Below are positions 36,580-63,092 of a stretch of 64,000 nt of DNA, one piece after another; within the stretch, counting starts at the first letter, position 1; each line of letters begins with the position of its first letter. Source of the DNA: a virus; the IMG/VR virus record IMGVR_UViG_3300046557_000205, positions 1 through 64,000 of that record, one strand, 5' to 3'. Below the pieces are notes generated by a model. The model did not search any database, was not told where the DNA came from, and was given only the letters and a program-made list of their open reading frames with translations. Made by a program: the position numbers and the translations under genes.

Positions 36580-36728
36580 TTTTTCTTTTCCGATATAGTA
36601 TATGATGCAAAAATAGATGCATTTGATAGTAGTCGTTTAAGTTCTTTCTCTGCTTCTTTTCGAGTAGTCCACTTAGAAATACAAGCACACCCTCCAAAAT
36701 CAAAACCTTCCCAAACTTCATATATCAT
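36576..36728 (-). CDS. Small protein of unknown function (50 aa)
   Basis: MIYEVWEGFDFGGCACIS... fills the gap between the reductase and the methyltransferase. Its ATG overlaps the reductase stop (ATGA) and its stop overlaps the methyltransferase start, which supports a real coupled gene. The pattern (KWTTRKEAEKELKRLL) is a strand-helix mini-domain. No family recognised. Confidence 0.6.
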   Translation of the reverse strand: MIYEVWEGFDFGGCACISKWTTRKEAEKELKRLLSNASIFASYTISEKKK

Positions 36729-50198: not shown

Positions 50199-50486
50199 TC
50201 AAATATCGTCTTCTTGATCCCCTTGTTGAGTAGGATCATAAGGTATTTCAAAAATAATATGATCTACTATGTATATTGGATGGGTATAACGTGGATTATC
50301 ATTATCTTCTTCATCCCATATAACCCAAATGACATCATCTGTCTCTTCTCTAACCTCTTCAATAACTAAATTACCCCAAACAGATTCAGCAAAATTTTCT
50401 GTGGTTACGGTACCCCATTGCACATATGCATGATCCTCTTCCTCCCAATGATTGGTTGATATCCTATCACCCTCACTAAATGTCAT
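50199..50486 (-). CDS. Tail-tagged small protein 1 (95 aa)
   Basis: It begins MTFSEGDRISTNHW, with the F-x-x-GD entry seen in all ten tagged proteins, and ends YDPTQQGDQEDDI, the most divergent tag. The middle is very acidic with beta strands (DVIWVIWDEED). Start chosen by analogy: the ATG lies in the tag codons of protein 2, 11 bases before that gene's stop, with GGGATCGTGAAG in front. No tagged gene follows it, so tag conservation here cannot be explained by the next gene's start. It uses TGA where most tags end in TAA. Confidence 0.8.
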   Translation of the reverse strand: MTFSEGDRISTNHWEEEDHAYVQWGTVTTENFAESVWGNLVIEEVREETDDVIWVIWDEEDNDNPRYTHPIYIVDHIIFEIPYDPTQQGDQEDDI

Positions 50487-50724
50487 CTTCACGATCCCCC
50501 ATTTGAGTTGGATCATATTGGAGTTCAACATACTTCAAGTTCCAAGGGCTAGCCCCGAGAGCTCTTTGACGTTTATTAAACCTGACAATACAAACTTCAC
50601 CTGGTACATCAATTTGTTCAATAATACCTTGCCAACCGATCCAACTTCTAGCACACGCACCACGATGACCATTTATATACTCTACATGATCACCAACTTT
50701 GAAGGTAATTTCAGATATCATCAT
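50476..50724 (-). CDS. Tail-tagged small protein 2 (82 aa)
   Basis: Begins MMISEITFKVGDHVEY and ends YDPTQMGDREDDI. The body has SH3/KOW-like strands (GWQGIIEQIDVPGEVCIVRF) expected of a small beta barrel. It starts within the tag codons of protein 3 (14-base overlap). Shortest of the ten. Confidence 0.82.
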   Translation of the reverse strand: MMISEITFKVGDHVEYINGHRGACARSWIGWQGIIEQIDVPGEVCIVRFNKRQRALGASPWNLKYVELQYDPTQMGDREDDI

Positions 50725-50977
50725 CTCGATCCCCCATTTGCTTAGGGTCATATGGTCTTTCACCAGGTTGTAGATGCCTAGTGTATACAGGATACCATCC
50801 TTCTATGGAATATCCTTTTGCTATTTCTACCATTTTCCCAGAAGTAAATATGATATTAGAGACTTCATTGTCATTCCATTGATGATGATAAGAATGAAAT
50901 ATACCTTGTGAGTCTTGGAAATCACTATTAGGGTGACCTGAATATACTAAAAGATCACCCTTCTTAAATGTCATCAT
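50711..50977 (-). CDS. Tail-tagged small protein 3 (88 aa)
   Basis: Begins MMTFKKGDLLVYSGHP and ends YDPKQMGDRDDDI. It is a clear paralogue of protein 4: both have a HP...GIF..Y segment, a [FV]T[AS]G[KR] segment and the same length. A frame extending to 51,052 exists only because it reads the previous gene's tag in another frame. The start lies in the tag codons of protein 4 (14-base overlap). Confidence 0.85.
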   Translation of the reverse strand: MMTFKKGDLLVYSGHPNSDFQDSQGIFHSYHHQWNDNEVSNIIFTSGKMVEIAKGYSIEGWYPVYTRHLQPGERPYDPKQMGDRDDDI

Positions 50978-51230
50978 CTCTGTCTCCCATCTGTGTTGGA
51001 TCGTATTTCTTCTCTGACCATACAAGTTTAAGACTACTGGAATATATCGCATAGCCTGCGACTTTCTTGTCTTTTATTCCATCAGTTATACGACCAGCTG
51101 TAAAATCAACTATAGATACACCTCTGAGTGAATAACTTTCATGATACTTTTTGAAAATACCAGTTGATTCATGATAAGGATGACCTATTTGATCATACAT
51201 TACTTCATCACCTGGATTAAATATCGTCAT
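50964..51230 (-). CDS. Tail-tagged small protein 4 (88 aa)
   Basis: Begins MTIFNPGDEVMYDQIGHP and ends YDPTQMGDRDDDI. Paralogue of protein 3. The ATG lies in the tag codons of protein 5, preceded by GGGAGA from the Met-Gly-Asp codons. Predicted small beta barrel followed by the acidic tag. Confidence 0.85.
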   Translation of the reverse strand: MTIFNPGDEVMYDQIGHPYHESTGIFKKYHESYSLRGVSIVDFTAGRITDGIKDKKVAGYAIYSSSLKLVWSEKKYDPTQMGDRDDDI

Positions 51231-51570
51231 CACGGTCTCCCATTTGGGTAGGATCATACTTCATTTCAGCAAGTTTCAGGGTTCTGGAATTACTAGAAAC
51301 TCTACTATTGTTTTTTCCAAGGGTACGGACGTAATTACTACCAAGTGATTTCTGTGCAAATTCATAAATCAAATATGTAGAGGTTGGAAAATGAATATCC
51401 TTAGATCCAACCCACCATTTAACATCACTCTTGGACTTATCTTCATCCCATTTAATGATGTATTCGGAGTTATTCGGACAGCAAGAAATGATTGTACCAA
51501 ACCACTCCCCATTCATACCCATAGATTTATTGCTGTATTTAACAAAATCCCCCAGTTTAAACTTAGCCAT
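51217..51570 (-). CDS. Tail-tagged small protein 5 (117 aa)
   Basis: Begins MAKFKLGDFVKYSNKS and ends YDPTQMGDRDDDI. The largest of the ten, with a Ser/Arg-rich linker (GKNNSRVSSNSRTLK) before the tag. The body has Trp-rich strands (WFGTIISCC; YIIKWDEDK). AAAAGGTGC precedes the ATG. First of a run of five tagged genes joined by overlaps; it follows the GGCT-like gene. Confidence 0.88.
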   Translation of the reverse strand: MAKFKLGDFVKYSNKSMGMNGEWFGTIISCCPNNSEYIIKWDEDKSKSDVKWWVGSKDIHFPTSTYLIYEFAQKSLGSNYVRTLGKNNSRVSSNSRTLKLAEMKYDPTQMGDRDDDI

Positions 51571-51615
51571 TATAGCACCTTTTAACTATTTGTGTAACAA
51601 ATTTCACGCTGATCT

Positions 51616-52242
51616 TCAGCTAGTAAAATAATATGTTCTGTCATGTTGATAAATGGTAGCACATGAGATTAAATGACCCTGTGCAAACATAGCATACTCT
51701 GAGAAAAATTCAAAGTCTACTAGATACATGAAAGCTTTGATTGCTCTCGTGTTGTCTTGCTTTTTGTCAGTGAGTTTTATCCATTCGAGTTCACGATTGT
51801 TACCCTCTGAATTACCCATGTACTTATCAATAGCACATAGAGTACGAAGATCCACCCCATACACATCACCTTCGATACGACCACAATACTGCATATTGAA
51901 TACATCACTGTAGTTATCACGAAGGATTGTATCTGTCGTTGGAAACTTGAATGCCATTGGTTCTGGTGACTCAGAGTTTACATCGTAGTGATCATAGTTA
52001 GTACGTTTGAGTAGATACTCATCCTTACTATAAGTAATCCCCTCACCATAGTACTTACAATGAGCAAGATACGTTAGATTCAGTGGTCTATTACGACGAA
52101 GATTACCTGTAACCATAACAAGAAATTCATTATGGATAAGATTATAATCCTTGAGGTTGTTCCAGTCTGGTGTGTTCTCTGAGGCCTTTTCGATCCGAGC
52201 CCAAGGATCGTAATCAAGCGGCTTCCGCTGTCTGACTGACAT
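51616..52242 (-). CDS. Gamma-glutamylcyclotransferase (GGCT/AIG2)-like protein (208 aa)
   Basis: The pattern fits GGCT-fold proteins: an early F-L-V...G-x-L-R strand-loop (FLVMVTGNLRRNRPLN), a central GDVYGVDLRTLCAIDKYMG resembling G-x-V-Y-x-V...L-D-x-x-E, and a late strand (AIKAFMYLVDFEFFSEY). Such enzymes release gamma-glutamyl groups as 5-oxoproline. The known YGTL start motif is altered and the acidic general base cannot be assigned with certainty. Amidoligase_2 genes elsewhere are linked to AIG2-type cyclotransferases, so context supports the call. It overlaps the preceding amidotransferase gene. Confidence 0.6.
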   Translation of the reverse strand: MSVRQRKPLDYDPWARIEKASENTPDWNNLKDYNLIHNEFLVMVTGNLRRNRPLNLTYLAHCKYYGEGITYSKDEYLLKRTNYDHYDVNSESPEPMAFKFPTTDTILRDNYSDVFNMQYCGRIEGDVYGVDLRTLCAIDKYMGNSEGNNRELEWIKLTDKKQDNTRAIKAFMYLVDFEFFSEYAMFAQGHLISCATIYQHDRTYYFTS

Positions 52243-53290
52243 CAGTAGTTCCCTTCTTCAGTTCAATAATCTTCTGTTCACCACGCTTCTTTGCTGCTTG
52301 AAGGAGACGGACGAGTTTAGTCTGCTTCCTTACCTGATCAGCCATATGACCCATCAGTGCTGCAATAGAATATGGACCTTCATTATCAATCAGATCGACC
52401 CACTCATCATACGTGATAAGCGATAGCTTAGCGAGAAGCTCCGGATCATCAAGATCCCAACGATCAATGATGTCAGTAACGGCTTTAACGATGACTGACG
52501 AACGAGCATTACTGAAGTCCCAAACCTGAACGTCTTGACTGGTTCCTGCAATAGTCCTGGAATGATCTGAGGGCCGAAAAGGGCCTGCAATTGCTAGTTG
52601 CGCCTCCCTTTCTTTGCGTGCCTCCTCCCTTGCTGCTTCCTCGCTTGCCTTTCTAACATCTTCAAGTCTTTGAAAGTATGGTCCACGCGAAAGTTTATCA
52701 AAGTAATCGTTGTTGGAGATCCAAACTTCACCGCTTGTTTCACCACCATCTTTGTGCTTGTACTCGGACCAACCATAACCAATCTTGAGGAATGGCATAT
52801 CATTCGAGATGAATAGACCCTTTGACTGAGATACCCACTGTTTTTCAACAATAAGCTTCCAGAAGTCGGGGTCAATATAATCACCCTTCCACTTGCTCAA
52901 CCCCGGAGTGAGGATTTTTTCACAGAAATCGAGGGTGTCAGATTTGCCAGTGTTGTGTTCTCCAAACATACCCAAAGTGCCGTTGTGCATGAACCACACT
53001 TGACGCTTGTTACTATGATAGACCGAGAACGGTTGCGTATTGCTCTCGTCTGTTGCTCCCTTGGTCGACCAACGGACATGAAGAATGCGTTCAATATCTT
53101 TGTTGTCTTCGAGAAGATCATAGATTTCTTCTGGATCATTTCCCTCTGCCCTAAACTTCTTGATCAATTGTGCATGTCCATTGCCATCCTTAAGGATTAG
53201 GCCATACCCATGTGGATTGTTATGCACTGCATTCGTCAAGTGCTCCTTGGTGATCATTGCACCAGAAGCCAGATGGATTATAACGCACAT
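52214..53290 (-). CDS. Stand-alone class II glutamine amidotransferase (358 aa)
   Basis: Ntn-type GATase II marks: Cys2 as the nucleophile after Met removal (MCVIIHLASG), HVRWSTKGATDESN, FMHNGTLG and GKSDTLDF. This domain hydrolyses glutamine to ammonia. No SIS, PRT or synthetase domain follows. Instead residues about 210-355 form a charged helical region (ASEEAAREEARKEREAQ). It follows tagged protein 6 by 18 bases. It may supply ammonia, or act as an amidase on conjugates, in the ligase pathway. Confidence 0.9.
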   Translation of the reverse strand: MCVIIHLASGAMITKEHLTNAVHNNPHGYGLILKDGNGHAQLIKKFRAEGNDPEEIYDLLEDNKDIERILHVRWSTKGATDESNTQPFSVYHSNKRQVWFMHNGTLGMFGEHNTGKSDTLDFCEKILTPGLSKWKGDYIDPDFWKLIVEKQWVSQSKGLFISNDMPFLKIGYGWSEYKHKDGGETSGEVWISNNDYFDKLSRGPYFQRLEDVRKASEEAAREEARKEREAQLAIAGPFRPSDHSRTIAGTSQDVQVWDFSNARSSVIVKAVTDIIDRWDLDDPELLAKLSLITYDEWVDLIDNEGPYSIAALMGHMADQVRKQTKLVRLLQAAKKRGEQKIIELKKGTTDVSQTAEAA

Positions 53291-53308
53291 CGTGAAAGTT
53301 CTTCCTAT

Positions 53309-53572
53309 TTAAATATCATCATCCCGGTCACCCATTTGTTTGGGATCATAGGGTATTTCTTTTGCATCTCGTTCCCATTTCCAAGCAGTAAAACCACTGT
53401 AACCGATTGAAGTGGGATAATCACCACCCCAACCGTGAATGAATGAGATCATCTTAGTCTTTTTGTTATTCTCTTTTATGAGGTGGGGACGAGGTTGGTG
53501 TTTTGCCTCATCAACTATCCATATCTCATCCCCAACTTCAAAGTCTTGGGCTTCAACTCTTTCTCTTTGCAT
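53309..53572 (-). CDS. Tail-tagged small protein 6 (87 aa)
   Basis: Begins MQRERVEAQDFEVGDEIW and ends YDPKQMGDRDDDI. The F-x-x-GD motif is preceded by nine extra residues. It starts at the stop of the ATP-grasp gene (TAATG) and precedes a class II amidotransferase. The next gene starts 18 bases after its stop, so the tag codons are not needed for translation coupling, yet the tag is fully conserved. Confidence 0.88.
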   Translation of the reverse strand: MQRERVEAQDFEVGDEIWIVDEAKHQPRPHLIKENNKKTKMISFIHGWGGDYPTSIGYSGFTAWKWERDAKEIPYDPKQMGDRDDDI

Positions 53573-54351
53573 TAGAATCCTGCCATTGCTGTCCGATAGT
53601 TGGTTACAGTTGCACCAGTGAGACCAGGAGCTGTGTTCACTTCAAGGGCATATGCACGATTGGATGCCTGATTGAAGATCACATCAGAAGCACCGAAATC
53701 CAACCCAAGAGCTTGAACAGAACGGATACCAGCATCAAGTACACACGGTGGGACCACATGACCATCATTGCGGGTATAGATGAACCCATTGGCCAGATTA
53801 CGAATCTTCCAGTTGACACCTTCAGTTCCCTGATGCTCCGGACGAAGGCCCTTACGTTGTGTATCAATTACTGCTCCACGACAAACATGAATACGATACT
53901 CATGCTTTTTGCTGATATACTTCACATACAAAGGAGCGGTCTGTTCCCAAGTATCCGGATGTTCTGGATCCATGATGACAATACCACGTCCTGAATGGGC
54001 TCTCAGCTGTGTCCGGGCAAATACCATAGTACCGGCCTCCAACCATGCCAAAGCCTCTGTACGGTTCGTTGTGAACTCAGGAGAGGGTACTCCTGCCTCA
54101 CGGAACTTCTGGAATGTCAAAGTCTTGTTCACTGCGATATCAACGTTCTCTGGTTTGTTGATTACAGTGCACTTTGCCAGTTCAGGGTTGGTGAACCGTT
54201 CAGTTGTCGCTCCCCAATTGAGAAGAATCTTATCCTTCGAACCCTTGAACTTGGAACCGTTATGCTTGACCCTCGGAATACCAAGAATCTCAGAAAGTTC
54301 CTTTGCGCCTTCAGATGCATTATTGTACGAAAACATTGCCTTGATAGTCAT
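53572..54351 (-). CDS. ATP-grasp ligase, RimK-like (259 aa)
   Basis: An ATP-grasp fold is visible: NKTLTFQKFREAGVPSP (near 75-91), VFARTQLRAHSGRGIVIMD (ATP-binding lid with Gly loop), PLYVKYISKKHEYRIHV (hinge) and ALEVNTAPGL near the end, with the E-x-N magnesium ligands. Family enzymes activate a carboxylate as acyl phosphate and join it to an amine, adding amino acids to peptides or proteins. The start MTIKAMFSYNN lies directly after tagged gene 7. Substrates are unknown; the tagged proteins encoded on both sides are candidates. Confidence 0.93.
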   Translation of the reverse strand: MTIKAMFSYNNASEGAKELSEILGIPRVKHNGSKFKGSKDKILLNWGATTERFTNPELAKCTVINKPENVDIAVNKTLTFQKFREAGVPSPEFTTNRTEALAWLEAGTMVFARTQLRAHSGRGIVIMDPEHPDTWEQTAPLYVKYISKKHEYRIHVCRGAVIDTQRKGLRPEHQGTEGVNWKIRNLANGFIYTRNDGHVVPPCVLDAGIRSVQALGLDFGASDVIFNQASNRAYALEVNTAPGLTGATVTNYRTAMAGF

Positions 54352-54352
54352 T

Positions 54353-54619
54353 TTAGATATCGTCCTCTCTGTCACCCATCTGGGTGGGATCATATGGAAT
54401 TTCTGCTAGTCTAATAGTAGTACCATCGTTAGGGTGAGTGTATCGTCTACTAATTGGTCCTACTACTTGAAAGTATTTTACATCAATGAGAGTGTTTTTA
54501 TCCCATTGAATACCTACTGCTTCAGCACCTATATCAAAAACAATACCAGTACTACCAGCATAGGTTTTGGAACCACAATATTCAACTCGGTCCCCAATAT
54601 GAAATATCTCTCCTGCCAT
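54353..54619 (-). CDS. Tail-tagged small protein 7 (88 aa)
   Basis: Begins MAGEIFHIGDRVEYCG and ends YDPTQMGDREDDI. The body is a good SH3-like barrel candidate (STGIVFDIGAEAVGIQWDK). It starts at the amidoligase stop (TAATG) and is followed at once by the ATP-grasp gene, so ligase, tagged protein and ligase form a unit. Confidence 0.9.
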   Translation of the reverse strand: MAGEIFHIGDRVEYCGSKTYAGSTGIVFDIGAEAVGIQWDKNTLIDVKYFQVVGPISRRYTHPNDGTTIRLAEIPYDPTQMGDREDDI

Positions 54620-55650
54620 TATAGATCACCCTGAGCATCCACAATCTTGTTGGTCGGATTGACACGATGATAAATTTCGTAAACAATCAAACGTTCATGA
54701 TAAGGGATCTGATCGAAACCAGAGTTAAACTGTTTCTGAGAGATTGCTTCCAATTGTTCCTTGATCTTCTCCTTGTATACCGGCTTGACCTTCAAGATAC
54801 CAAACTTAGACCAATCCTTCGATACACCTGCCAGATTTGCTGCATACCATACATCACGGTCCATCTCTCTTTTGATGTCCTTGACGGTAGCCTTCAGCTT
54901 CTTAGCATGTTCCTTGAGGATGATATCAACCAGAGCTGGACCATTCTCACTGTACATCTTACAGATTGTTGCAGGAGTTAGCTTAGGGTCAGCAGCGAAC
55001 TGCTTGATCCGATCAATGATGTCGATCCATTCCTGGATGACCTTGATATCAGTCTCACCACGGAAGGAACGTACTTCCAGTGTCCCAAGAGTGGACAGAG
55101 TAGCAGCATTGAGTGCAGAGTACTTTACGTGCTCGGAGTTCAATACTGCCTTGCTGAACGAGTTTCGATTGATCTGTGATAGAAGGTTAATCCACTTGTT
55201 CAAAAGCCCCTCAGCGTCTCGTACGGGCAGACAGAACAGGTTTGACAGACGATCTGGGCCTGAATATCGGATCAACATCGTTTCCAACAATACCCATGCT
55301 GTCATGAAGTTCGCTACTGTCAGGTAGGTCTCATTCAACATGTTGACATGTACATGAACAGATGTAGACACTGATGACGTCTTGAACTTCCATTTTTTGT
55401 CACAGGCTTGGAATTCAGTCAGTGCTCGTTCCAACTCAGGCCCACCCATAGGACCCTTCAAGACATACTCTACACCCCAATCTCGGAGAGAGTTGTCCTT
55501 TTTGGCTTCCCAATACTTGAGAGCAGGGTAATCATACTTCTTGTCGGTCTCAGTTTCGATCTCAACACCAAAGTCTCCTGTGTAACGAGTACCAATCCCT
55601 CGTCCAGAAGACTTCATGATGTCATATACTTTATTCAAATTCGTAGACAT
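54619..55650 (-). CDS. Amidoligase_2-type glutamine-synthetase-fold ligase (343 aa)
   Basis: Signature residues: GDFGVEIETE (26-35, two metal-binding Glu), TSVHVHVNML (near 115-124, paired His) and GTLEVRSFRG (near 204-213, Glu and Arg), the pattern of COOH-NH2 ligases related to glutamine synthetase. Such enzymes form amide or peptide bonds with ATP. The family is known to neighbour glutamine-amidotransferase-like peptidases or AIG2 cyclotransferases; both are present here. GAAGGTAATAAATA precedes the ATG. Confidence 0.9.
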   Translation of the reverse strand: MSTNLNKVYDIMKSSGRGIGTRYTGDFGVEIETETDKKYDYPALKYWEAKKDNSLRDWGVEYVLKGPMGGPELERALTEFQACDKKWKFKTSSVSTSVHVHVNMLNETYLTVANFMTAWVLLETMLIRYSGPDRLSNLFCLPVRDAEGLLNKWINLLSQINRNSFSKAVLNSEHVKYSALNAATLSTLGTLEVRSFRGETDIKVIQEWIDIIDRIKQFAADPKLTPATICKMYSENGPALVDIILKEHAKKLKATVKDIKREMDRDVWYAANLAGVSKDWSKFGILKVKPVYKEKIKEQLEAISQKQFNSGFDQIPYHERLIVYEIYHRVNPTNKIVDAQGDL

Positions 55651-56276
55651 TATTTATTACCTTCTTGAATATCCCAGTCTTTAATATCAGACAAGAAAAA
55701 GATAGCATAGCAAGACGTATCAGTCGTAGGAACGATGACCTTCTTTGTCCCCATCCGGACATATCCTACTTCAATTTCCTTGACAAACACCTTGAGCTTA
55801 TCATATTCCCTCTGAACTGCCACATCTCGCGATAGAGCAACAGAGAAAAACCCTTTCTCAACCAAGAGTTTCATCGCTTGAGAAAATGATGGGTAATTGT
55901 TTGCCACACAATCAACCAAGCACTTACCTTCAAGGATCTTCGGATGGACTCCAGCACCATTACTACGGAGAACTGTCTGTGTCAGGCGTTGTACATCGAT
56001 ACCTTGACGGTACTGACGAGCAGGTTCACGCTTCAAATACACTGCCAGCTTGTAATCTGGGTGATCAATGTTGAGATACCCCAAAGTCAAGCTACTAATA
56101 TCGATATTGACATCTTCCGGGTCAACATTTGAGGCAATCAAACCATGACCTTCGAGGGAAAAGAGGGCCAACTGACCCAAATCCTGTACCTCTACCTTCA
56201 CTGGTATGCCTTTGTACCGAATAATGGTACCACCAAGACGAGCCTTGATGTCTTCACCCTTGTATTTATTACGCAT
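55650..56276 (-). CDS. Unknown protein in the ligase cluster (208 aa)
   Basis: Start MRNKYKGEDIKARLGG chosen because it follows the ligase stop by one base; the longer frame to 56,420 lies inside the ligase gene. The N-terminal part is beta-rich (GTIIRYKGIPVKVEVQD); the middle has RQGIDVQRLTQTVLRS; a Cys-containing segment CLVDCVANN follows; the C-terminus has DTSCYAIFFLSDI. No catalytic signature is recognised. Tightly packed between two amide ligases, it may be a substrate or partner. Confidence 0.75.
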   Translation of the reverse strand: MRNKYKGEDIKARLGGTIIRYKGIPVKVEVQDLGQLALFSLEGHGLIASNVDPEDVNIDISSLTLGYLNIDHPDYKLAVYLKREPARQYRQGIDVQRLTQTVLRSNGAGVHPKILEGKCLVDCVANNYPSFSQAMKLLVEKGFFSVALSRDVAVQREYDKLKVFVKEIEVGYVRMGTKKVIVPTTDTSCYAIFFLSDIKDWDIQEGNK

Positions 56277-56277
56277 T

Positions 56278-56994
56278 TTAGAGTCCGATAAGTTCGCGGA
56301 ACGTATTCCGGGTCTGGTTAAAAATAAGACGACGTGTTTCTTCACGTCCCACCCAAAGATTTGAAGGGGCACGGAGTTCAACACCGTACTTCTTAGGGCG
56401 GAAAGAGCCGCTATGGCCATAATAAATCAACCGTTCTTGTTCTTCCTCAGTGTGTGGGGTATACAAAGACAGACCCTTCTTGTGGAATTCCCTTGCAAAA
56501 TACAAGCAATCCTCAAAATGATCTGCTTCCATAGGATTATCAATCAACTCATCCCGGAAACCGATATGAATATGACCGGCAGCCGTACGAAGGGTATCTC
56601 CCTCAAGTGCCTCCGTTGGGTTGATGTTAACCTGCCCTTCGATATTGAAGTCAGGGTCACAACCAAGGACCTTGTTGTCCTCAGGTATCATAGTCCAGAT
56701 GTCTTTACGGAACCGTGCCACTGGTGTCCACGAGACAGTGTAGTCTTTGTCCACCTTCTTGATCATAGTGTCGATTTGTTGAGTAACAGCGACTACATTC
56801 CGGTTGAACTCTTCTTCGTTCTCTGCCGGATCAATGTTGAACTCTACTGCTACACCGTCTACCTGTACTGCACCATGCTCAATCTTGTATGGGTTATGCT
56901 TGTCTCCGGGAATAATTCCGGTCGCAGGAATAAACGTACCTGCCTTGTCAACAATAAACCCTTCCGGGTCTGCACCAATACGTATCGTAGTCAT
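56278..56994 (-). CDS. phiEco32-like COOH-NH2 ligase, type 2 (238 aa), copy B
   Basis: Motifs: IGADPEGFIVD (5-15), GAVQVDGVAVEFNIDPA (37-53, metal Glu), TAAGHIHIGF (paired His) and YGVELRAPSNLW (Glu and Arg). These match the phage ligases first noted in phiEco32. It shares the whole pattern with the 279-aa copy at 59.1-59.9 kb but is diverged in between, so they may use different substrates. AAAGGTAATATA precedes the ATG. Confidence 0.92.
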   Translation of the reverse strand: MTTIRIGADPEGFIVDKAGTFIPATGIIPGDKHNPYKIEHGAVQVDGVAVEFNIDPAENEEEFNRNVVAVTQQIDTMIKKVDKDYTVSWTPVARFRKDIWTMIPEDNKVLGCDPDFNIEGQVNINPTEALEGDTLRTAAGHIHIGFRDELIDNPMEADHFEDCLYFAREFHKKGLSLYTPHTEEEQERLIYYGHSGSFRPKKYGVELRAPSNLWVGREETRRLIFNQTRNTFRELIGL

Positions 56995-57038
56995 TATATT
57001 ACCTTTGAAAATATACTTTGAGCGTAATTGCTCTTTGC

Positions 57039-57320
57039 TTAAATATCGTCTTCTAAATCACCCATCTGACTTGGGTCGTATGCACGTTCTTCGTCGATAT
57101 GTTCAAGATTACTGGGGAAAACCCCCAGAGAATGGTCATAACTAGAACCGAATTTCCAAAACTTCTCGTCTACTTCAAAATAGACATTCTCTTTAGTACC
57201 TTCGAGTGTAACAGTACCGGTAATCCCAATCCTATTCAAGTCGATTGAACTAATGACACCATGTTCTTTCCAGTAATTACCGGTATACCTTACTCTGTCA
57301 CCTTTCTTAAATGTCGTCAT
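57039..57320 (-). CDS. Tail-tagged small protein 8 (93 aa)
   Basis: Begins MTTFKKGDRVRYTGNY and ends YDPSQMGDLEDDI. Strong SH3/KOW-like strands (EHGVISSIDL; GITGTVTLEG). Its ATG lies in the tag codons of protein 9 (14-base overlap). The next gene, ligase B, starts 45 bases downstream with its own site, so here too the tag is conserved without overlap. Confidence 0.88.
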   Translation of the reverse strand: MTTFKKGDRVRYTGNYWKEHGVISSIDLNRIGITGTVTLEGTKENVYFEVDEKFWKFGSSYDHSLGVFPSNLEHIDEERAYDPSQMGDLEDDI

Positions 57321-57588
57321 CACGGTCCCCCATTTGAGTAGGGTCGTAAGGTATTTCTCGGAGAGAGAGTTTTTCTGGTGGAAAAAACCAACCCTCTTTC
57401 TCTTTGAGACCACCATGAAGATTATGCTTCAGAGTTTTAGTGGTTCTCTTATCCTCTCTAGTGATTTTGATACCATAACAAGCATAGCTGTGTTTATCAC
57501 CGGGCTTAGTGATGACCTCACCCTCTCCTGCCCCGGAGCCCATGTAGTCTTGGAAATTTATGAGATCTCCATAATTAAATTTACTCAT
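57307..57588 (-). CDS. Tail-tagged small protein 9 (93 aa)
   Basis: Begins MSKFNYGDLINFQDYM and ends YDPTQMGDRDDDI. The body is Gly- and Lys-rich with beta strands (YACYGIKITRED). The ATG overlaps the amidotransferase stop (ATGA). Its tag codons hold the ribosome-binding site and start of protein 8. Confidence 0.88.
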   Translation of the reverse strand: MSKFNYGDLINFQDYMGSGAGEGEVITKPGDKHSYACYGIKITREDKRTTKTLKHNLHGGLKEKEGWFFPPEKLSLREIPYDPTQMGDRDDDI

Positions 57589-58844
57589 CCCACTTTGGCC
57601 TCTGGTTTGCAGTTGTCACAGTAATATTCCCCATGCTTTTCATCATAGGAGAAACCCTTGAGAAGACCACGACGGCATCGATCACTTTCAAACAAATTGA
57701 ACCGCTTCTTCTCGCAACGGCACTTGTTCCAGAATGTCTTGATCGATTGGTGTTTGAACACCGGTTGTTTAACTATCTTCACTTCTGGTTGCACAACAGG
57801 AACTGAACGATTGCCCGTACCAGTAGCCGCAGCTTGCTTGTTGAAGGGAATAACGACACTCTCACCCATTGGTGTCTTCCACCGTTCGGGTTCACCATTG
57901 ACGTCCTGGGACAAAAAATCAGGAGACCATACACCTCCTTTATTCGTCGTTCCCCCAGATTGCGGAGTAAAATTTAGGCGTTCCTCTCTGTCCAACCTCT
58001 CTCTGTTGGTCTCTTCTTGGACTACGACAGGAACCTGCTTCTTCATCTCAGGATGTTCGTTGGTATAACCAAAATGTTTCCAGACATATGCTGTCGGATC
58101 CTTTTTGATATTGGCCATCGTTACATCTGACGACGATACAGTGATAACCTGATGAGAAGCAAAGCCCATAACATTTGCATCACCTTCACCATTACGACCA
58201 AGGATATACCGGAGCATACCGATATCAGATGCCCAATACATGACACCACGATCCTTCAGGAACGCAAAGGCGAGGTCTCGTGCACCATTACGAGCAAAGT
58301 ACATCTTGTGGTCTGCACGGTTGTACATAGTGATTGCATAGGCACTACGAACATCGAGATCATTCAGGACATCGAGGATGTTACCCTTCTTCTCCTGCAT
58401 ACGATGATTGATATCAAGGAACAACAATTCGCTGTCGGTCTTCTTGTTATCTTCATACTTCTTGTCTACGAGTGTACCATTGTGTGCACCTACGATATTG
58501 TAAGTGTTGAATGGATGAGCATTGGCCTCATTGATATGACCCTTGGTTGCCCAACGAACATGGCACATCAATACGTCAGCCATCGTTGACTTGAGAAGAT
58601 CAGCATAGTCTTTGTCTTTACGACCATGATGTTCATCAATCTCAGTCATCATCGACGACCAGTTTTCTGGTGACTTGTATATCTGCTCATACTTGAAGGC
58701 GTTCTTACCGAATGCCTGTGAACGAACTTGATATATGCCAGCACCATCGATACCCCTGATCTGAGATACAAATCCCAATTCTCGGAGAATCTTATAGTCC
58801 TTGACCTGAATTCCAGGCCCCATCATTCCCAAAAGTCCACACAT
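57585..58844 (-). CDS. Class II glutamine amidotransferase with a C-terminal zinc-ribbon-like end (419 aa)
   Basis: Cys2 (MCGLLGMMGPG), CHVRWATKGHINEA, GAHNGTLVDKK and KKTDSELLFLD define a GlmS/PurF-type glutaminase domain of about 230 residues. No synthase domain follows. The C-terminal part has a Gln/Pro/Thr linker and a Cys cluster (CRCEKKR near 385, then DRCRRG and YCDNCKPE) that should bind zinc. It may deliver ammonia to, or trim, a conjugate. The start codon overlaps the stop of tagged gene 10 (TAATG). Confidence 0.92.
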   Translation of the reverse strand: MCGLLGMMGPGIQVKDYKILRELGFVSQIRGIDGAGIYQVRSQAFGKNAFKYEQIYKSPENWSSMMTEIDEHHGRKDKDYADLLKSTMADVLMCHVRWATKGHINEANAHPFNTYNIVGAHNGTLVDKKYEDNKKTDSELLFLDINHRMQEKKGNILDVLNDLDVRSAYAITMYNRADHKMYFARNGARDLAFAFLKDRGVMYWASDIGMLRYILGRNGEGDANVMGFASHQVITVSSSDVTMANIKKDPTAYVWKHFGYTNEHPEMKKQVPVVVQEETNRERLDREERLNFTPQSGGTTNKGGVWSPDFLSQDVNGEPERWKTPMGESVVIPFNKQAAATGTGNRSVPVVQPEVKIVKQPVFKHQSIKTFWNKCRCEKKRFNLFESDRCRRGLLKGFSYDEKHGEYYCDNCKPEAKVG

Positions 58845-59116
58845 TAAATATCGTCCTCTCGATCACCCATCTGAGTGGGATCGTATTGAATTTCTGCTGG
58901 TATAAAACGTCTGGCACTATATGGACCCATCCCTTCCACCCAACTCTTTTGATGTTCTGGTGGAGGAACAAGTGTCACTAGTGGGTTCACATTCCCATCT
59001 AGAGTATCACTATTGTTGAAAGCCTTTTGGACGACATATTCAACATCACCCTTAAGACGAGACAACTTCCAGTCTATGCACTGTACTCTATCACCCGGCG
59101 AAAACTGGTGTGCCAT
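58844..59116 (-). CDS. Tail-tagged small protein 10 (90 aa)
   Basis: Begins MAHQFSPGDRVQCIDW and ends YDPTQMGDREDDI. The start is chosen because GGGAAG lies four bases upstream; a longer frame to 59,257 runs inside ligase A. It starts inside the last codons of ligase A and its stop overlaps the amidotransferase start, so ligase, tagged protein and amidotransferase are translated in a chain. Confidence 0.9.
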   Translation of the reverse strand: MAHQFSPGDRVQCIDWKLSRLKGDVEYVVQKAFNNSDTLDGNVNPLVTLVPPPEHQKSWVEGMGPYSARRFIPAEIQYDPTQMGDREDDI

Positions 59117-59930
59117 AGTTCTTCCCGATATGTTCAAGATACTTTCGTATGCCTGTTCGTGATGATGATTTACCGCCCTGCACGGATTTGACAAAGCCAG
59201 CACACAGATCGTCACTATAGATACGAGTCCCAGTGTCAAAAAGAAGGTTAGTAACATGGACTGTCATCTCAAAGACAAACTCTTGTGTTGACTTATCCCT
59301 AAGATAGGCATTGGAGAGAGGTCGATACTCCACACCATAGGGTTTGGGCCTGAATGACCCCATCTTACCATACAATGTACGACGTTTCGTGTCGTCGTCC
59401 CAGAGAAGGCTACTCGGGTAGAGTGTAACATCTAACTGTTGGACCAGTTCACGACAATTCGAGATGTGTCTTTCGTCCGTAATAGAATGACCATCTCCCC
59501 ACCCAATATGGATATGCCCCGCTCCAGTACGAAATGTCTCATTCGTGAACGGAGGTTCATTTTCTTTTCCTGTGTAAGCATTGAAGTCGGGAGTACATCC
59601 CAGAACTTTAATCTCCTCGGGAAGCGCATCGAAGTACACCTTATCAAAATGAGCTGTAGGGATAATGTCAAGGTCATATGCAGGTTTCTTCTCCTGAATA
59701 ATCTCCGTCATGGAGTTCATGACACTACGAATACTCTTTGTGAACTCATCCTTCGTTTCAGCAGGATCAATATTGAATTCACAAGCAACACCATCCACCT
59801 GAATAGCTCCACGTGGTACATGATGTGGCATATCCTTTGTCCCTGGGATGAGATCATGACCAGATACATATCGGCCATATTCATCAATCACAAAGAGTTC
59901 GGGATCTGTTCCTATTAGAATTCGGTTCAT
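59091..59930 (-). CDS. phiEco32-like COOH-NH2 ligase, type 2 (279 aa), copy A
   Basis: Motifs: IGTDPELFVID (6-16), GAIQVDGVACEFNIDPA (near 37-53), TGAGHIHIGWGD (paired His, near 137-148) and YGVEYRPLSNAYL (Glu/Arg, near 197-209). Glutamine-synthetase-fold enzyme expected to join a carboxylate and an amine using ATP. AAAGGTAGC precedes the ATG. Longer than copy B by about 40 residues at the C-terminus. Second ligase of the same subfamily in one operon suggests a two-step conjugation or two substrates. Confidence 0.92.
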   Translation of the reverse strand: MNRILIGTDPELFVIDEYGRYVSGHDLIPGTKDMPHHVPRGAIQVDGVACEFNIDPAETKDEFTKSIRSVMNSMTEIIQEKKPAYDLDIIPTAHFDKVYFDALPEEIKVLGCTPDFNAYTGKENEPPFTNETFRTGAGHIHIGWGDGHSITDERHISNCRELVQQLDVTLYPSSLLWDDDTKRRTLYGKMGSFRPKPYGVEYRPLSNAYLRDKSTQEFVFEMTVHVTNLLFDTGTRIYSDDLCAGFVKSVQGGKSSSRTGIRKYLEHIGKNYGTPVFAG

Positions 59931-60907
59931 GCTACCTTTAATACCTTCTGTTTCGCTGCTAATGTCTTGCTGGCACCCTTCCAGACAAACAACTTACGCT
60001 TAGTCTGTCCACCCTTGAGGATATCTTCAAAGGCTTCCTTGAACCTATCGCAGACAGGTTTGATACTCATTGGTTGGGGAGTTAAACTACCACCCTTATG
60101 GATACCTAGTTTGGCACAAAGAACATCCCATTTGATCTCTTTTTCTTCTCCAGGATCATAGCAGAAGAGCTCATCAATGGATGTGCGGTTATAGTCCACA
60201 CGGTCACGTAGAGAGCCACCAGAGAGATCTCGTGGTGTTCCTTGTAGAAGACGCCTGATGTTATACTGAAAGCCACTGTACCCCCCTGTACAGCCATTCC
60301 AGATGGGGTTACCACTATTAAGGTAGTGGATAGTGAAAGCTTCACGCCATGTCAGCCCTGAATCCACATATGTCTTGATAGCATTGGCAGACTCTCCGAA
60401 GTACAGATAACTCTTACGGAGATAGTGGACCAATACCGTAGGGTCGATCTCAAGATTGGACATATAGAATCCAATAATGTTCTTCTTGGCATTGTACTGG
60501 AACTGGACATCACCAATCATCTGCGGATAGATGGAGTGCTTTTTGTCAAAGAGCTTCTCCAAGACACGATTGGTTGTCTGATTGCCGTCTTCCAATCCAC
60601 TATTCAATGTGTTGACACTGAAGTCTACAGCCAGACCAAGAGGACGACCTTCAGGAAACTTATGCCAAAGATCAGTTGGCTTGTTGTTCTCAGGCTGAGT
60701 GCATTCCTCAGGATAGTTCTTTGTGTACTTCCTGAGTTCACCCCAACATGGCTGACTCTCCCGTGGATGAAAACTCACATCAGGGTTGTTCCGATATGCA
60801 TCATAGGGAACTTGTGAATTCCAACCTTGATCATGTTCCATCACTAGGACGAACGAACGACCACGAAGACCTGATGCCATTGCCATAGCGATGGATGCAT
60901 AATTCAT
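59927..60907 (-). CDS. Unknown protein in the ligase cluster (326 aa)
   Basis: MNYASIAMAMASGLRGRS... shares a four-base overlap with ligase A and is certainly part of the operon. It has a Cys/Pro-rich N-terminal third (PRESQPCWGELRKY; PEECTQPENN), a central LGLAVDFSVNTLNSG that could be a metal or carboxylate site (like E/D-x-N strands of GS-fold ligases), and a C-terminal helical part. A very diverged amidoligase is possible but I cannot show it. Confidence 0.8.
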   Translation of the reverse strand: MNYASIAMAMASGLRGRSFVLVMEHDQGWNSQVPYDAYRNNPDVSFHPRESQPCWGELRKYTKNYPEECTQPENNKPTDLWHKFPEGRPLGLAVDFSVNTLNSGLEDGNQTTNRVLEKLFDKKHSIYPQMIGDVQFQYNAKKNIIGFYMSNLEIDPTVLVHYLRKSYLYFGESANAIKTYVDSGLTWREAFTIHYLNSGNPIWNGCTGGYSGFQYNIRRLLQGTPRDLSGGSLRDRVDYNRTSIDELFCYDPGEEKEIKWDVLCAKLGIHKGGSLTPQPMSIKPVCDRFKEAFEDILKGGQTKRKLFVWKGASKTLAAKQKVLKVA

Positions 60908-60913
60908 TGAAAC

Positions 60914-61567
60914 CTACCTAAGCATATCAAAGATGTTAAAGAAATAATCTCGGCATTCACTCTTGGACTTACCGACTGCACGAACTTCCCATTCAGGATG
61001 TGGCTGGAAGCAAAGGGAACGAGTATTGTCATACCACAAAACCTCAGGCTCTACCGCTGGCTTGGTGATAGGACCATTCTGACCATAGCACTCAGTGATA
61101 CGATTCTCTGAGTATGCAATGATCTCTGCACTCTCAGCAGGAACCATCATCTGATGATGACTGCTTGTGACTGTGACCGGTTCAGGTGAGCCGAGAAGAG
61201 TATCAAACATCTCATGCTCAATGGTGTGGTTATCCACATGTTGGATCATCTTGCCACCATTCATGACATTCAAGAACTGACCGCCACGGCAGATACCCAC
61301 CTTGATCTGATCAGCCCGTGTCTTCTTCCATGCAGCAATGTCACGATCATCCGTGTGTGCATCGACAGAGAACTTGTGCATCTTGGGGCCAAGCTTCTCC
61401 TGATACAAAGCAGGACTGATGTCATGACCACCAATGAAGCAAACAATGTCTGCCTGCTCAATACGAGCTTCGAGTGGATACCGTGCTTCATACCACATGG
61501 CACTGATATCACGAGATGCACCAACGATATATACCGATGGCTTACGTGGGGTTGCATCGTTAGTCAA
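60914..61567 (-). CDS. Class I glutamine amidotransferase/gamma-glutamyl hydrolase-like, PuuD family (217 aa, TTG start)
   Basis: The catalytic Cys is in KVGICRGGQFLNVMNGG (near 88-104), matching the CRGxQxLNxxxGG nucleophile elbow of gamma-Glu-GABA hydrolase. FIGGHDISPALY is the oxyanion loop and LCFQPHPEWE holds His-x-Glu. The family cleaves gamma-glutamyl amide bonds. The TTG at 61,567 has GGGGA seven bases upstream; an ATG near 61,666 would overlap the upstream gene by about 100 bases. It would reverse or edit bonds made by the ligases. Confidence 0.88.
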   Translation of the reverse strand: MTNDATPRKPSVYIVGASRDISAMWYEARYPLEARIEQADIVCFIGGHDISPALYQEKLGPKMHKFSVDAHTDDRDIAAWKKTRADQIKVGICRGGQFLNVMNGGKMIQHVDNHTIEHEMFDTLLGSPEPVTVTSSHHQMMVPAESAEIIAYSENRITECYGQNGPITKPAVEPEVLWYDNTRSLCFQPHPEWEVRAVGKSKSECRDYFFNIFDMLR

Positions 61568-61568
61568 C

Positions 61569-62435
61569 TTATCGTCCCCATTTTTCGAGTTTGGTCTTGA
61601 GGTGCTCACTGAGTGTGCTAAGCCTTTGCTGATCAAGGGTGTAGACAGTAGCCGTAGGAGCGCCATACCGGGCACCTGTTGCTGCTGTTGTTGCGATCCC
61701 GAAGGATTGTTTGAATTCACCGGACAGTACCTTTCCTGTTCCAGACCATAGTTCCCTCGTGTAGGCATCTCTCTCCTTACCACGATGGGTTTCATTACGA
61801 TAGAACATACCCCAATCGGTACTTCCATCAATTGTCACCTGATGAGAACCAGTCCAACCACCAGTGAATGTCCCACCAATGGCAATTTGTTCATCAGGTA
61901 GTATCGATAGATAGTACATCATGATGTGAGCTAGCTTCTTGTTTACTCCTAGTTCAACAAGACGGCCCCATACATTGACGTTAGCTACCTTATCCTTTGG
62001 TGCTCTACTCTCAATAAGGAAAGCATAAAAGAGTAGTGACATACCATCTTTCATCAAAGCATCGGGAACCCTAAAGCCAAGCATCTGATCTGAGTTATCA
62101 GTGAGAACCTCCCATCCGGGTACTTTGAAGAAATCCTGATAGAAACACTCAGGACCAGTAATGTAATCCCACCACTCTTTTGCATACTTATGTCCCCCAC
62201 CATAATTGGACACAAGATCACTGATGAAGGTAGACCGACGAATGCCAGCATGACATGTCTGACCAGAGTGTCTCACTGGTTCAGGCTTTGATAGTGCAGC
62301 ACCATATGCACCAGTACCAGTTAGGCATGAATACACACAGATACCAGTCTTACCATGAATGGCGACATGTTGTTCACTCGGATCTTTGGGATCATAAACC
62401 CTTCTAGACAAGCTCAAGCTTCCAGGCTTTTGCAT
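61569..62435 (-). CDS. Unknown protein in the ligase cluster (288 aa)
   Basis: Start MQKPGSLSLSRRVYDP chosen with AAGAAG upstream; a longer frame is possible. Notable parts: HGKTGICVYSCLTGTGAYGAAL (Gly/Cys rich), KYAKEWWDYITGPECFYQDFF, and QIAIGGTFTGGWTGSHQVTID. It contains a YDPKDPSEQ segment near the start that vaguely recalls the tag but is not terminal. No family recognised. Gene order ties it to the amidotransferase after it (two-base gap). Confidence 0.8.
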   Translation of the reverse strand: MQKPGSLSLSRRVYDPKDPSEQHVAIHGKTGICVYSCLTGTGAYGAALSKPEPVRHSGQTCHAGIRRSTFISDLVSNYGGGHKYAKEWWDYITGPECFYQDFFKVPGWEVLTDNSDQMLGFRVPDALMKDGMSLLFYAFLIESRAPKDKVANVNVWGRLVELGVNKKLAHIMMYYLSILPDEQIAIGGTFTGGWTGSHQVTIDGSTDWGMFYRNETHRGKERDAYTRELWSGTGKVLSGEFKQSFGIATTAATGARYGAPTATVYTLDQQRLSTLSEHLKTKLEKWGR

Positions 62436-63057
62436 CTTCTTTGAGCCTCCGAGTAGAGATCTTAATCCAATTGTCACCGTAGTTGTTCCACTTCTTGATA
62501 TCGATACCGAACTTCAGCTTGATATGTTTTGCTGCTGCGTCCGGAGGGACGAGGAGAACGTGCTCAATGCGATTATCAACCCCAGTGTTGTCTTGGACGA
62601 TGCGGGCCTTCCTAAGTTTCGACAACAGAATGTCCTCAAACGCTTGGCGCTTTGGATCTGGTTTCTTTGGAGGATCAATCTTGTCTTTGAGTTCTTTGAG
62701 TTCTTCATGGAAAGATGTGAGAGCCTTTTCGTACTCGCTCGGCTGCGCAGTGAAGAGGTATATATCACCTGTGTCCTTGTGGCGTTGTTCGTTGTGTTTG
62801 TTTTTCTCCCCGTGGAACACCTGGACGAAGCCACATTTGGGGAGGAACTCGTCCAGTCCATGATACTCGATCTGTTTCCCGGTGACCGTAACCATAATTC
62901 CTGCAAAGTCACGCTTAAAGCCCAACTTTATCATTTCAGCTACAGTGTTCAATCGGGAATTGACCTGCAACTTAGGGTCCTTTGACACCAAATTAGCAAT
63001 ATCCCATCCCACAAGGTGGGACATAGTGCATGTAGTAGACACAGCTACATGTTGCAT
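62404..63057 (-). CDS. Unknown protein, first gene of the ligase cluster (217 aa)
   Basis: Start MQHVAVSTTCTMSHLVG is chosen: AAAGAAAG lies upstream and a longer frame would run into the promoter region. The N-terminal Thr/Cys/His-rich stretch could be catalytic. The middle (FHEELKELKDKIDPPKKPDPK) is charged; the C-terminus (ARIVQDNTGVDNRIEHVLLVPP...) resembles part of a nucleic-acid or nucleotide-binding domain. No family recognised. It overlaps the next gene by 32 bases. Confidence 0.75.
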   Translation of the reverse strand: MQHVAVSTTCTMSHLVGWDIANLVSKDPKLQVNSRLNTVAEMIKLGFKRDFAGIMVTVTGKQIEYHGLDEFLPKCGFVQVFHGEKNKHNEQRHKDTGDIYLFTAQPSEYEKALTSFHEELKELKDKIDPPKKPDPKRQAFEDILLSKLRKARIVQDNTGVDNRIEHVLLVPPDAAAKHIKLKFGIDIKKWNNYGDNWIKISTRRLKEDAKAWKLELV

Positions 63058-63092
63058 GTTAAATCTTTCTTTCTGTGGTTGTACGATTTCTC

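Follow-up and report, generated by a model that had tools for sequence, protein, structure and literature searches.

A shared C-terminus on ten small phage proteins

The window analysed here is a stretch of 64,000 nucleotides, positions 1 to 64,000 of the 70,564-base phage record IMGVR_UViG_3300046557_000205 of the IMG/VR database, and it contains ten small minus-strand genes whose products share a C-terminal peptide of thirteen residues (hereafter the tail) within a cluster of amide ligases. The first-pass annotation had reported these genes from the sequence, and their coordinates, their strand and the pattern YDP[TKS]Q[MQ]GD[RLQ][DE]DDI were all borne out when the window was read again, with stop codons where expected (Table 1). 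Two extra copies, with stops near 64337 and 64729, lie beyond the window in the same record and bring the genome total to twelve. In a six-frame translation of the window, the open reading frames (ORFs) of more than about 40 codons that end in three acidic residues and one hydrophobic residue were exactly the ten tail genes, and no other ORF of that length ended so. When the residue classes of the last four positions were shuffled among genes within each column, a tail family as large as the observed one arose in 0 of 200 permutations; the family is therefore not due to chance.

The bodies of the tail proteins are mostly dissimilar, as had been claimed; a few pairs within the genome are alike (at most 35% identity over 77 amino acids), and many of the proteins start with F-x-x-GD. 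Orthologues of the body of tail gene 5 were found in about ten related phages, and its AlphaFold2 (AF2) model, with a predicted local distance difference test (pLDDT) score of 75, has weak SH3/Tudor/KOW-like matches. In the AF2 models, for which the sequence rows were those of the window and IMG/VR only, the tail region has low confidence (about 55-66), consistent with a tail that may be disordered.

A feature of the proteins rather than of the DNA or RNA

The tail genes overlap, and explanations based on a start codon or a ribosome-binding site therefore needed testing. The test took every pair of tails that agree in residue at a given position and compared the fraction that use one and the same codon with the expectation from the codon usage of the genome. 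In the window this fraction was 0.44 versus 0.47 expected; in related phages the observed and expected values were 0.48/0.48 (phiM6), 0.45/0.45 (RHph_N3_13), 0.44/0.46 (3322), 0.51/0.50 (27809), 0.47/0.46 (46474) and 0.48/0.49 (47472). Arginine in the window tails is encoded by CGT, CGA, AGA and CGG, glycine by GGG, GGT and GGA, and proline by CCT, CCA and CCC. The tail is a protein-level feature under selection, and neither a DNA repeat nor a ribosome site. Recent duplication or gene conversion as its origin is ruled out by the free variation of synonymous sites, and a phage promoter or a Shine-Dalgarno/start element by the codon test.

Hardly any credence can be given to a conserved DNA or RNA feature (a promoter, a recombination cassette, or the ribosome-binding site of the next overlapping gene) of which the peptide would be a by-product. 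Several tails do overlap the next start codon, the ATG lying within GATGACATTTAA, and the shared ends of some other ligase phages (CVT22, L168 and L155) truly are ribosome-binding sequence; but the tails of the window group have no excess codon conservation, which already refutes this explanation for this phage group, and they persist where no start is close (50199, 57039) and on a host protein described below. The tail of tail gene 1 is kept without translational coupling, since the next gene starts about 45 nucleotides downstream.

That the codon test detects nucleotide-level conservation is evident from Citrobacter phage CVT22 (L200), in which seventeen proteins have the C-terminus LENE and codon identity is 0.70 versus 0.43 expected, because TTGGAGAATGAATAA is a ribosome-binding sequence for the next gene. 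The second tail families considered in L168 and L155 (ENE, ENK), with values of 0.63 and 0.76 versus 0.47 and 0.51 expected, were rejected together with that of CVT22 as ribosome-binding sequence on account of this codon bias, and the shared ends of L174 (DLYY) and L189 (F[RK]GN) are doubtful, being likewise ribosome-binding-like. The short shared C-termini of these five loci are a pitfall for C-terminal motif searches. Salinivibrio phage CW02 (L116) encodes, in or near its ligase cluster, about nine small proteins with FK.GQ.V bodies and L.P..LEEN ends; their codon identity (0.47 versus 0.41) is mostly that of a protein-level feature but mixed, and they may constitute an independent, mostly protein-level tail family.

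Genome-specific flavours and concerted evolution

Among named phages, Sinorhizobium phage phiM6 and the Rhizobium phages RHph_N3_19, I3_11 and N3_13 are the nearest; each of them encodes 13-15 small proteins with a common C-terminus, annotated as 'hypothetical' in the record tables examined. These four and at least seven related IMG/VR genomes have 6-15 tail proteins apiece, and the tail has a flavour specific to the genome: [YF]xxxQ[TSAQV]GD[TR][DE][DE]DI in the Rhizobium phages and YxxDQEP[LM]E[DE]E[ETC][LI] in phiM6. In IMG/VR, pattern scans located about sixteen contigs with the tail, in the flavours YDPxQQGDKDEDI, YDPxQQGDTDEDI, YDPTQ[VAM]GDTDDDI, YDPKQQPDEEDDI, YDPSQEPDDEDDV and YSPDQNGDTDDDI. 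Across genomes, position 4 may be T, K, S, N, M, D, E, L or A, and the tail may end in DDI, EDI, DDV or ETL. Tails are at least as similar within genomes as between genomes, and one flavour is common to the three Rhizobium phages.

When 97 body-matched pairs of proteins from different phages (less than 85% identity) were compared, mean tail similarity was 0.80 to unrelated tails of the same genome versus 0.68 to the orthologue, and the tail was closer to those of its own genome in 81 of the 97 pairs. Genome-specific concerted evolution of the tails is secure and, given the freely varying synonymous sites, it is not the result of gene conversion. Its implication is that each genome has one reader and that the tags follow that reader. 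A few degraded tails in phage 46474 (L032, L039), YCINQLGDREDDL and YDPTKQEDGDDDL, are possibly a record of tags escaping the code.

The surrounding amide-ligase cluster

The tail genes sit among ligase and replication genes, apart from the structural genes, and the cluster around them (Table 1) is the already known phage amide-ligase cluster, recognised as phiEco32-like from the outset. This cluster, reportedly described by Iyer et al. 2009, is said to comprise PF12224, PF14395, ATP-grasp, class II amidotransferase, GGCT and C26 proteins. The window has the PF12224 and PF14395 GS-fold ligases with a linked ATP-grasp and class II amidotransferase, and the same enzyme set in a similar order; unlike most members of the type, which have neither, it adds the tag and a GNAT-fold gene. 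Proposals for the role of the phiEco32-type cluster concern modification of the cell wall or peptidoglycan (PMC6256558, PMC10580990). The enzymes first named in the window were mostly recovered (PF12224, PF14395, ATP-grasp, two class II amidotransferases and the C26/class I amidotransferase), the GGCT-like protein and a second PF14395-like protein being weak in Pfam.

The profile of the window ATP-grasp has its best matches of solved structure in CdnC (E 8e-6), the ATP-grasp ligase 5ig8 (E 9e-6) and RimK (E 2e-5), and also matches microviridin ligases; its closest solved relatives are thus graspetide ligases and RimK, which act on peptides or protein C-termini. The profile hidden Markov model of unk55 matches 61 of 84 other ligase-phage loci. 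In phiM6, an additional gamma-glutamyl cyclotransferase-like gene lies amid a run of tail genes (L007, 20944-21354), and a comparable gene adjoins the tail genes of the RHph phages. Outside the cluster, positions 36725-38650 of the window resemble the genes for B12-dependent ribonucleotide reductase in phiM6, RHph and marine podoviruses, a match that places the phage near the HMO-2011-like group, which was without the ligase cluster in the loci tested.

Table 1. Tail genes and ligase-cluster genes of the window, with tail sequences and best profile matches.
Feature	Coordinates	Strand	Tail or match	Remarks
Tail gene 1	50199..50486	-	YDPTQQGDQEDDI at 50202-50240	
Tail gene 2	50476..50724	-	YDPTQMGDREDDI at 50479-50517	
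Tail gene 3	50711..50977	-	YDPKQMGDRDDDI at 50714-50752	
Tail gene 4	50964..51230	-	YDPTQMGDRDDDI at 50967-51005	
Tail gene 5	51217..51570	-	YDPTQMGDRDDDI at 51220-51258	Most widely conserved body
GGCT-like protein	51616..52242	-	PF06094 E 0.016 (weak)	Conserved in relatives
Class II glutamine amidotransferase GATII_a	52214..53290	-	PF13230 E 1e-5	
Tail gene 6	53309..53572	-	YDPKQMGDRDDDI at 53312-53350	
ATP-grasp ligase	53572..54393	-	PHROG 2599 'S6 glutaminyl transferase' E 2e-77	RimK/graspetide-ligase-like
Tail gene 7	54353..54619	-	YDPTQMGDREDDI at 54356-54394	
Amidoligase_2	54619..55650	-	PF12224 E 1e-7	
unk55	55650..56420	-	PHROG 11055 E 2e-17	Conserved cluster protein, function unassigned
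COOH-NH2 ligase COOHNH2_a	56278..56994	-	PHROG 3815 COOH.NH2 ligase E 6e-56	PF14395-like, weak in Pfam
Tail gene 8	57039..57320	-	YDPSQMGDLEDDI at 57042-57080	Next gene 45 nt off, no overlap
Tail gene 9	57307..57588	-	YDPTQMGDRDDDI at 57310-57348	
Class II glutamine amidotransferase GATII_b	57585..58844	-	PF13522 E 6e-9	
Tail gene 10	58844..59116	-	YDPTQMGDREDDI at 58847-58885	
COOH-NH2 ligase COOHNH2_b	59091..59930	-	PF14395 E 1e-6	
unk59	59927..60907	-	No Pfam/PHROG match	Cluster protein, in some relatives
Peptidase_C26 / class I amidotransferase	60914..61750	-	PF07722 E 2e-12	
unk61	61569..62435	-	No PHROG match	Cluster protein
unk62	62404..63060	-	AF2 and Foldseek	Putative GNAT-fold protein of tail phages

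Genes that accompany the tails

The co-occurrence of tails and ligases that had been put forward for checking holds from the side of the tails: all long records rich in tails carry a GGCT, a pair of class II amidotransferases, the ATP-grasp, Amidoligase_2, a COOH-NH2 ligase and C26. The gene unk62 separates the two groups of phages: each tail-rich record has it, and of 48 other ligase-phage records none does. A scan with unk62 retrieved seven contigs, of which six were known; the seventh, IMGVR_UViG_3300023118_000023 (L315), has ten tails of a new flavour, YDP[NT][QG][QE]GET[DE][DE]DI, that the earlier patterns had overlooked, a success in a held-out test of the link between unk62 and the tails. 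The AF2 model of unk62 (pLDDT 87.6) has GNAT acetyltransferases for all its top Foldseek matches in the PDB (probability 1.00, E 3e-3, template modelling (TM) score 0.36-0.38), a putative relationship at the level of fold, and there was no PHROG sequence match. The GNAT fold includes enzymes that move amino acids onto proteins.

Covariation of tail similarity with gene identity was computed by Mantel tests over 8-9 genomes (nine; with and without phiM6). The correlation with flavour was highest for COOHNH2_a (rho 0.81, p 0.0003), followed by GATII_a (0.66), the ATP-grasp (0.59), unk62 (0.57) and Amidoligase_2 (0.54), and no link was seen for the non-cluster genes polA (-0.01) and zn49 (0.10). 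This covariation supports, without proving, a reader within the ligase module. A phage-encoded reader in or beside the module is probable, and we favour, tentatively and with confidence a little short of even, the explanation that the tail is a C-terminal address tag and that its reader belongs to the phage ligase/GNAT module and modifies the tagged proteins.

The tail on host histidyl-tRNA synthetase and on prophage genes

A scan of 85,000 bacterial and archaeal genomes for YxPxQxxDx[DE][DE]D followed by a hydrophobic residue gave eight matches at the DNA level. The C-terminus of histidyl-tRNA synthetase (HisRS; ...PYDPAQAGDTDDDI) in Rhizobium and related bacteria accounts for five of them; another is in a 72-residue gene of a Rhizobium prophage, and the remaining two, in Streptomyces, correspond to no such protein end; the tail at the protein level was found in Rhizobiales only. 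The scan found no tailed host protein besides HisRS, no tail was found on plasmids, and the phiM6-type tail gave two loose one-mismatch matches in 299 Rhizobiaceae genomes, neither of them convincing.

The ordinary HisRS end in most Rhizobiaceae is ...AEDRKRAG. The tail is present on HisRS in 10 of 148 genomes of one genus, in one case partly decayed, and the HisRS tree implies at least 5-9 gains or losses. HisRS with the phage-type tail (PYDPAQAGDTDDDI/V) occurs at loci L056, L057, L058, L059, L063, L100-L108 and L110, patchily and with some copies partly decayed. In a comparison of two genera, the codons of the HisRS tail show nine synonymous differences and one non-synonymous difference. 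The ligase ATP-grasp and unk62, the two families searched for, were not found in the six tail-bearing genomes tested.

The first-pass annotation had named a tail common in phages without ligases as telling against its proposal. None of the 67 control loci of non-ligase phages has a tail family. Two temperate Rhizobiales phages or prophages bear one small tagged protein each (L062 3814-4032, L046 11445-11624). The tag of L062 is of the 3322 type, and that of L046, with an integrase gene nearby, has exactly the flavour of lytic phage 46507; a search for the ligase ATP-grasp and unk62, these two only, found neither in the genome or record of L046 or L062.

It is secure that many phage proteins bear a protein-level, genome-specific tag that evolves in concert, and that Rhizobium HisRS has a counterpart of it. 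This host counterpart, the differences in flavour among genomes and the restriction of a GNAT-fold gene to tail phages go beyond what was first annotated. The occurrence of tags on HisRS and in temperate phages indicates that the tag is portable and is selected outside the ligase phages, and the patchy distribution and matching flavours suggest a role as bait, as decoy or in counter-mimicry, but are also compatible with a host reader. In that case a Rhizobiales host protein (a chaperone, a polymerase, a ribosome-associated protein or another) would read the tag, small phage takeover proteins and, in some strains, tagged HisRS would use one dock, and flavours would vary with the host. We consider this unlikely. 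It agrees with the confinement of the tail to Rhizobiales, with the temperate phages or prophages whose tags resemble those of lytic phages, with the preponderance of synonymous differences in the HisRS tail, and with the finding of the most divergent flavour in phiM6, a phage of Sinorhizobium. Nevertheless, a tail that only a minority of Rhizobium genomes have on HisRS, so often gained or lost, does not resemble a core host interaction; a second tailed host protein was not found; and the tail phages share a phage gene, unk62, that other ligase phages lack, and their flavour covaries with the ligases.

Comparison with known systems

As the first-pass annotation had supposed, no tag family described alongside the amide-ligase cluster was found in the literature or reference libraries searched. 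The tail and the ATP-grasp recall glutamylation of ribosomal protein S6 by RimK, an ATP-grasp relative for which an acidic, flexible protein C-terminus is likewise the possible substrate; the phage tail, however, ends in isoleucine, leucine or valine and not glutamate, occurs on a dozen proteins and has a genome-specific sequence. The same terminal residues distinguish it from the LysW/ArgW amino-group carriers, rejected because their EDWGE end terminates in glutamate. Resemblance to peptides modified by ATP-grasp enzymes stands as far as the homology to graspetide ligases and RimK is concerned: the nearest solved relatives include CdnC, and like graspetides (microviridin) the tail proteins are small with an acidic C-terminal segment. 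It does not extend to the hallmarks of graspetide precursors, which share a leader and core motifs with fixed nucleophiles, whereas in the phage proteins the body varies and the tail is shared; with mostly unrelated bodies and no threonine, serine or lysine invariant across genomes, a graspetide precursor is rejected.

The suggested likeness to Pup fails on the C-terminal residues. Small proteins, a conserved extreme C-terminus and a nearby GS-fold carboxylate-amine ligase are indeed common to the tail system and Pup/PafA, but Pup is one modifier and the phage tags are on many different bodies, and a Pup-like modifier is rejected for want of a C-terminal GG[E/Q]. At the level of sequence profiles, the Amidoligase_2 profile brought up neither PafA nor Dop even with E values as high as 10 allowed. 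The tip of SSB, DDDIPF, is an acidic disordered tail with a hydrophobic end that acts as a docking hub; the phage tail has a similar character but is longer, has Y-D-P-x-Q at its core, does not finish in PF and is carried by a dozen proteins in one phage.

An extreme C-terminal, probably disordered, acidic peptide with a terminal hydrophobic residue on unrelated bodies, HisRS included, might also govern stability, as a C-terminal degron or anti-degron through which a protease of the host or the phage would set how long early proteins last. This is decidedly unlikely: thirteen constrained residues with genome-specific flavours exceed what such a signal needs (the bacterial C-degrons known to us are shorter and looser), and a degron on the essential HisRS would be costly. 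Very unlikely is a cargo-loading or capsid-targeting signal that packs small proteins for injection, comparable to T4 internal proteins or encapsulin cargo peptides. The T4 internal proteins share an N-terminal capsid-targeting sequence that is removed by the prohead protease, so that in both cases one terminal peptide is found on diverse, unrelated small phage proteins, and this sharing is itself the sole direct support from the tools used. The phage tail, by contrast, is C-terminal and its genes are with ligase and replication genes instead of structural ones; its flavour tracks the ligases and not polA, in a comparison of non-capsid genes; and host HisRS has no need of a cargo signal.

Proposed mechanism

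According to the favoured explanation, an address tag read by the ligase/GNAT module, the tail would be a short, probably disordered C-terminal tag on early small phage proteins, with bodies that may often be SH3-like and one reader in common. The reader would most likely be phage-encoded within the amide-ligase module, the best candidates being the GNAT-fold protein (62404-63060), a COOH-NH2 ligase or the ATP-grasp; docked on the tag, it would modify the proteins that bear it. The simplest modification would be the addition of an amino acid or amide to the free C-terminus or close to it, comparable to the extension of the acidic end of ribosomal protein S6 by RimK. Because one reader would serve many tagged proteins, reader and tags would drift together and give each phage a private flavour. 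We infer the identity of the reader and the covalent modification, and likewise that the HisRS and prophage copies may act as bait, decoy or counter-mimicry. Of the two roles first suggested for the tail, recognition is supported by the codon test and the covariation with the ligases, and attachment received no support. In a further reading, the ligase/GNAT module of the phage would read a private zip-code on its early small proteins and might extend it covalently, and some Rhizobium strains (on the essential HisRS) and prophages would show the locally matching code as bait, decoy or abortive-infection trap, the tag being an arms-race interface; in our estimate this is unlikely.

Several points weigh against the address-tag explanation. 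The ATP-grasp and COOH-NH2 ligase are present in about 310 public phages, and nearly all of the ligase phages tested (PA11, PaP3, phiEco32, T5S1 and 80 IMG/VR loci) are without tails, among them about 70 of the IMG/VR loci, which rules out tails as a general trait of ligase phages and means that the core ligases alone cannot be tail-specific. The tail-rich phages are all one lineage, so that their co-occurrence with unk62 is close to one evolutionary event. The covariation tests cover 8-9 genomes, and the non-cluster SSB-like (0.56) and nucleotidyltransferase (0.49) genes also correlate with flavour. The GNAT assignment of unk62 is a structural prediction limited to the fold, with modest TM-scores. 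The tag is found on HisRS and on two prophage-type proteins in genomes or records without the ATP-grasp ligase. A covalent change of the tagged proteins is an unproven proposal, and so is any role of the tail on HisRS.

Implications

The amide-ligase cluster occurs in hundreds of phages, and the published papers found name no substrates for it. A tag that covaries with the ligases is a concrete candidate substrate that can be put to the test in the laboratory, with phiM6 on S. meliloti 1021 and RHph on Rhizobium phaseoli, and tags of this kind could be useful as short recognition peptides. Natural records of a many-to-one recognition code are rare, and the concerted evolution of a protein-level tag over a dozen proteins is one of them. 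Should the HisRS tail prove to be a bait or decoy, it would represent a new way for bacteria to engage phage machinery.

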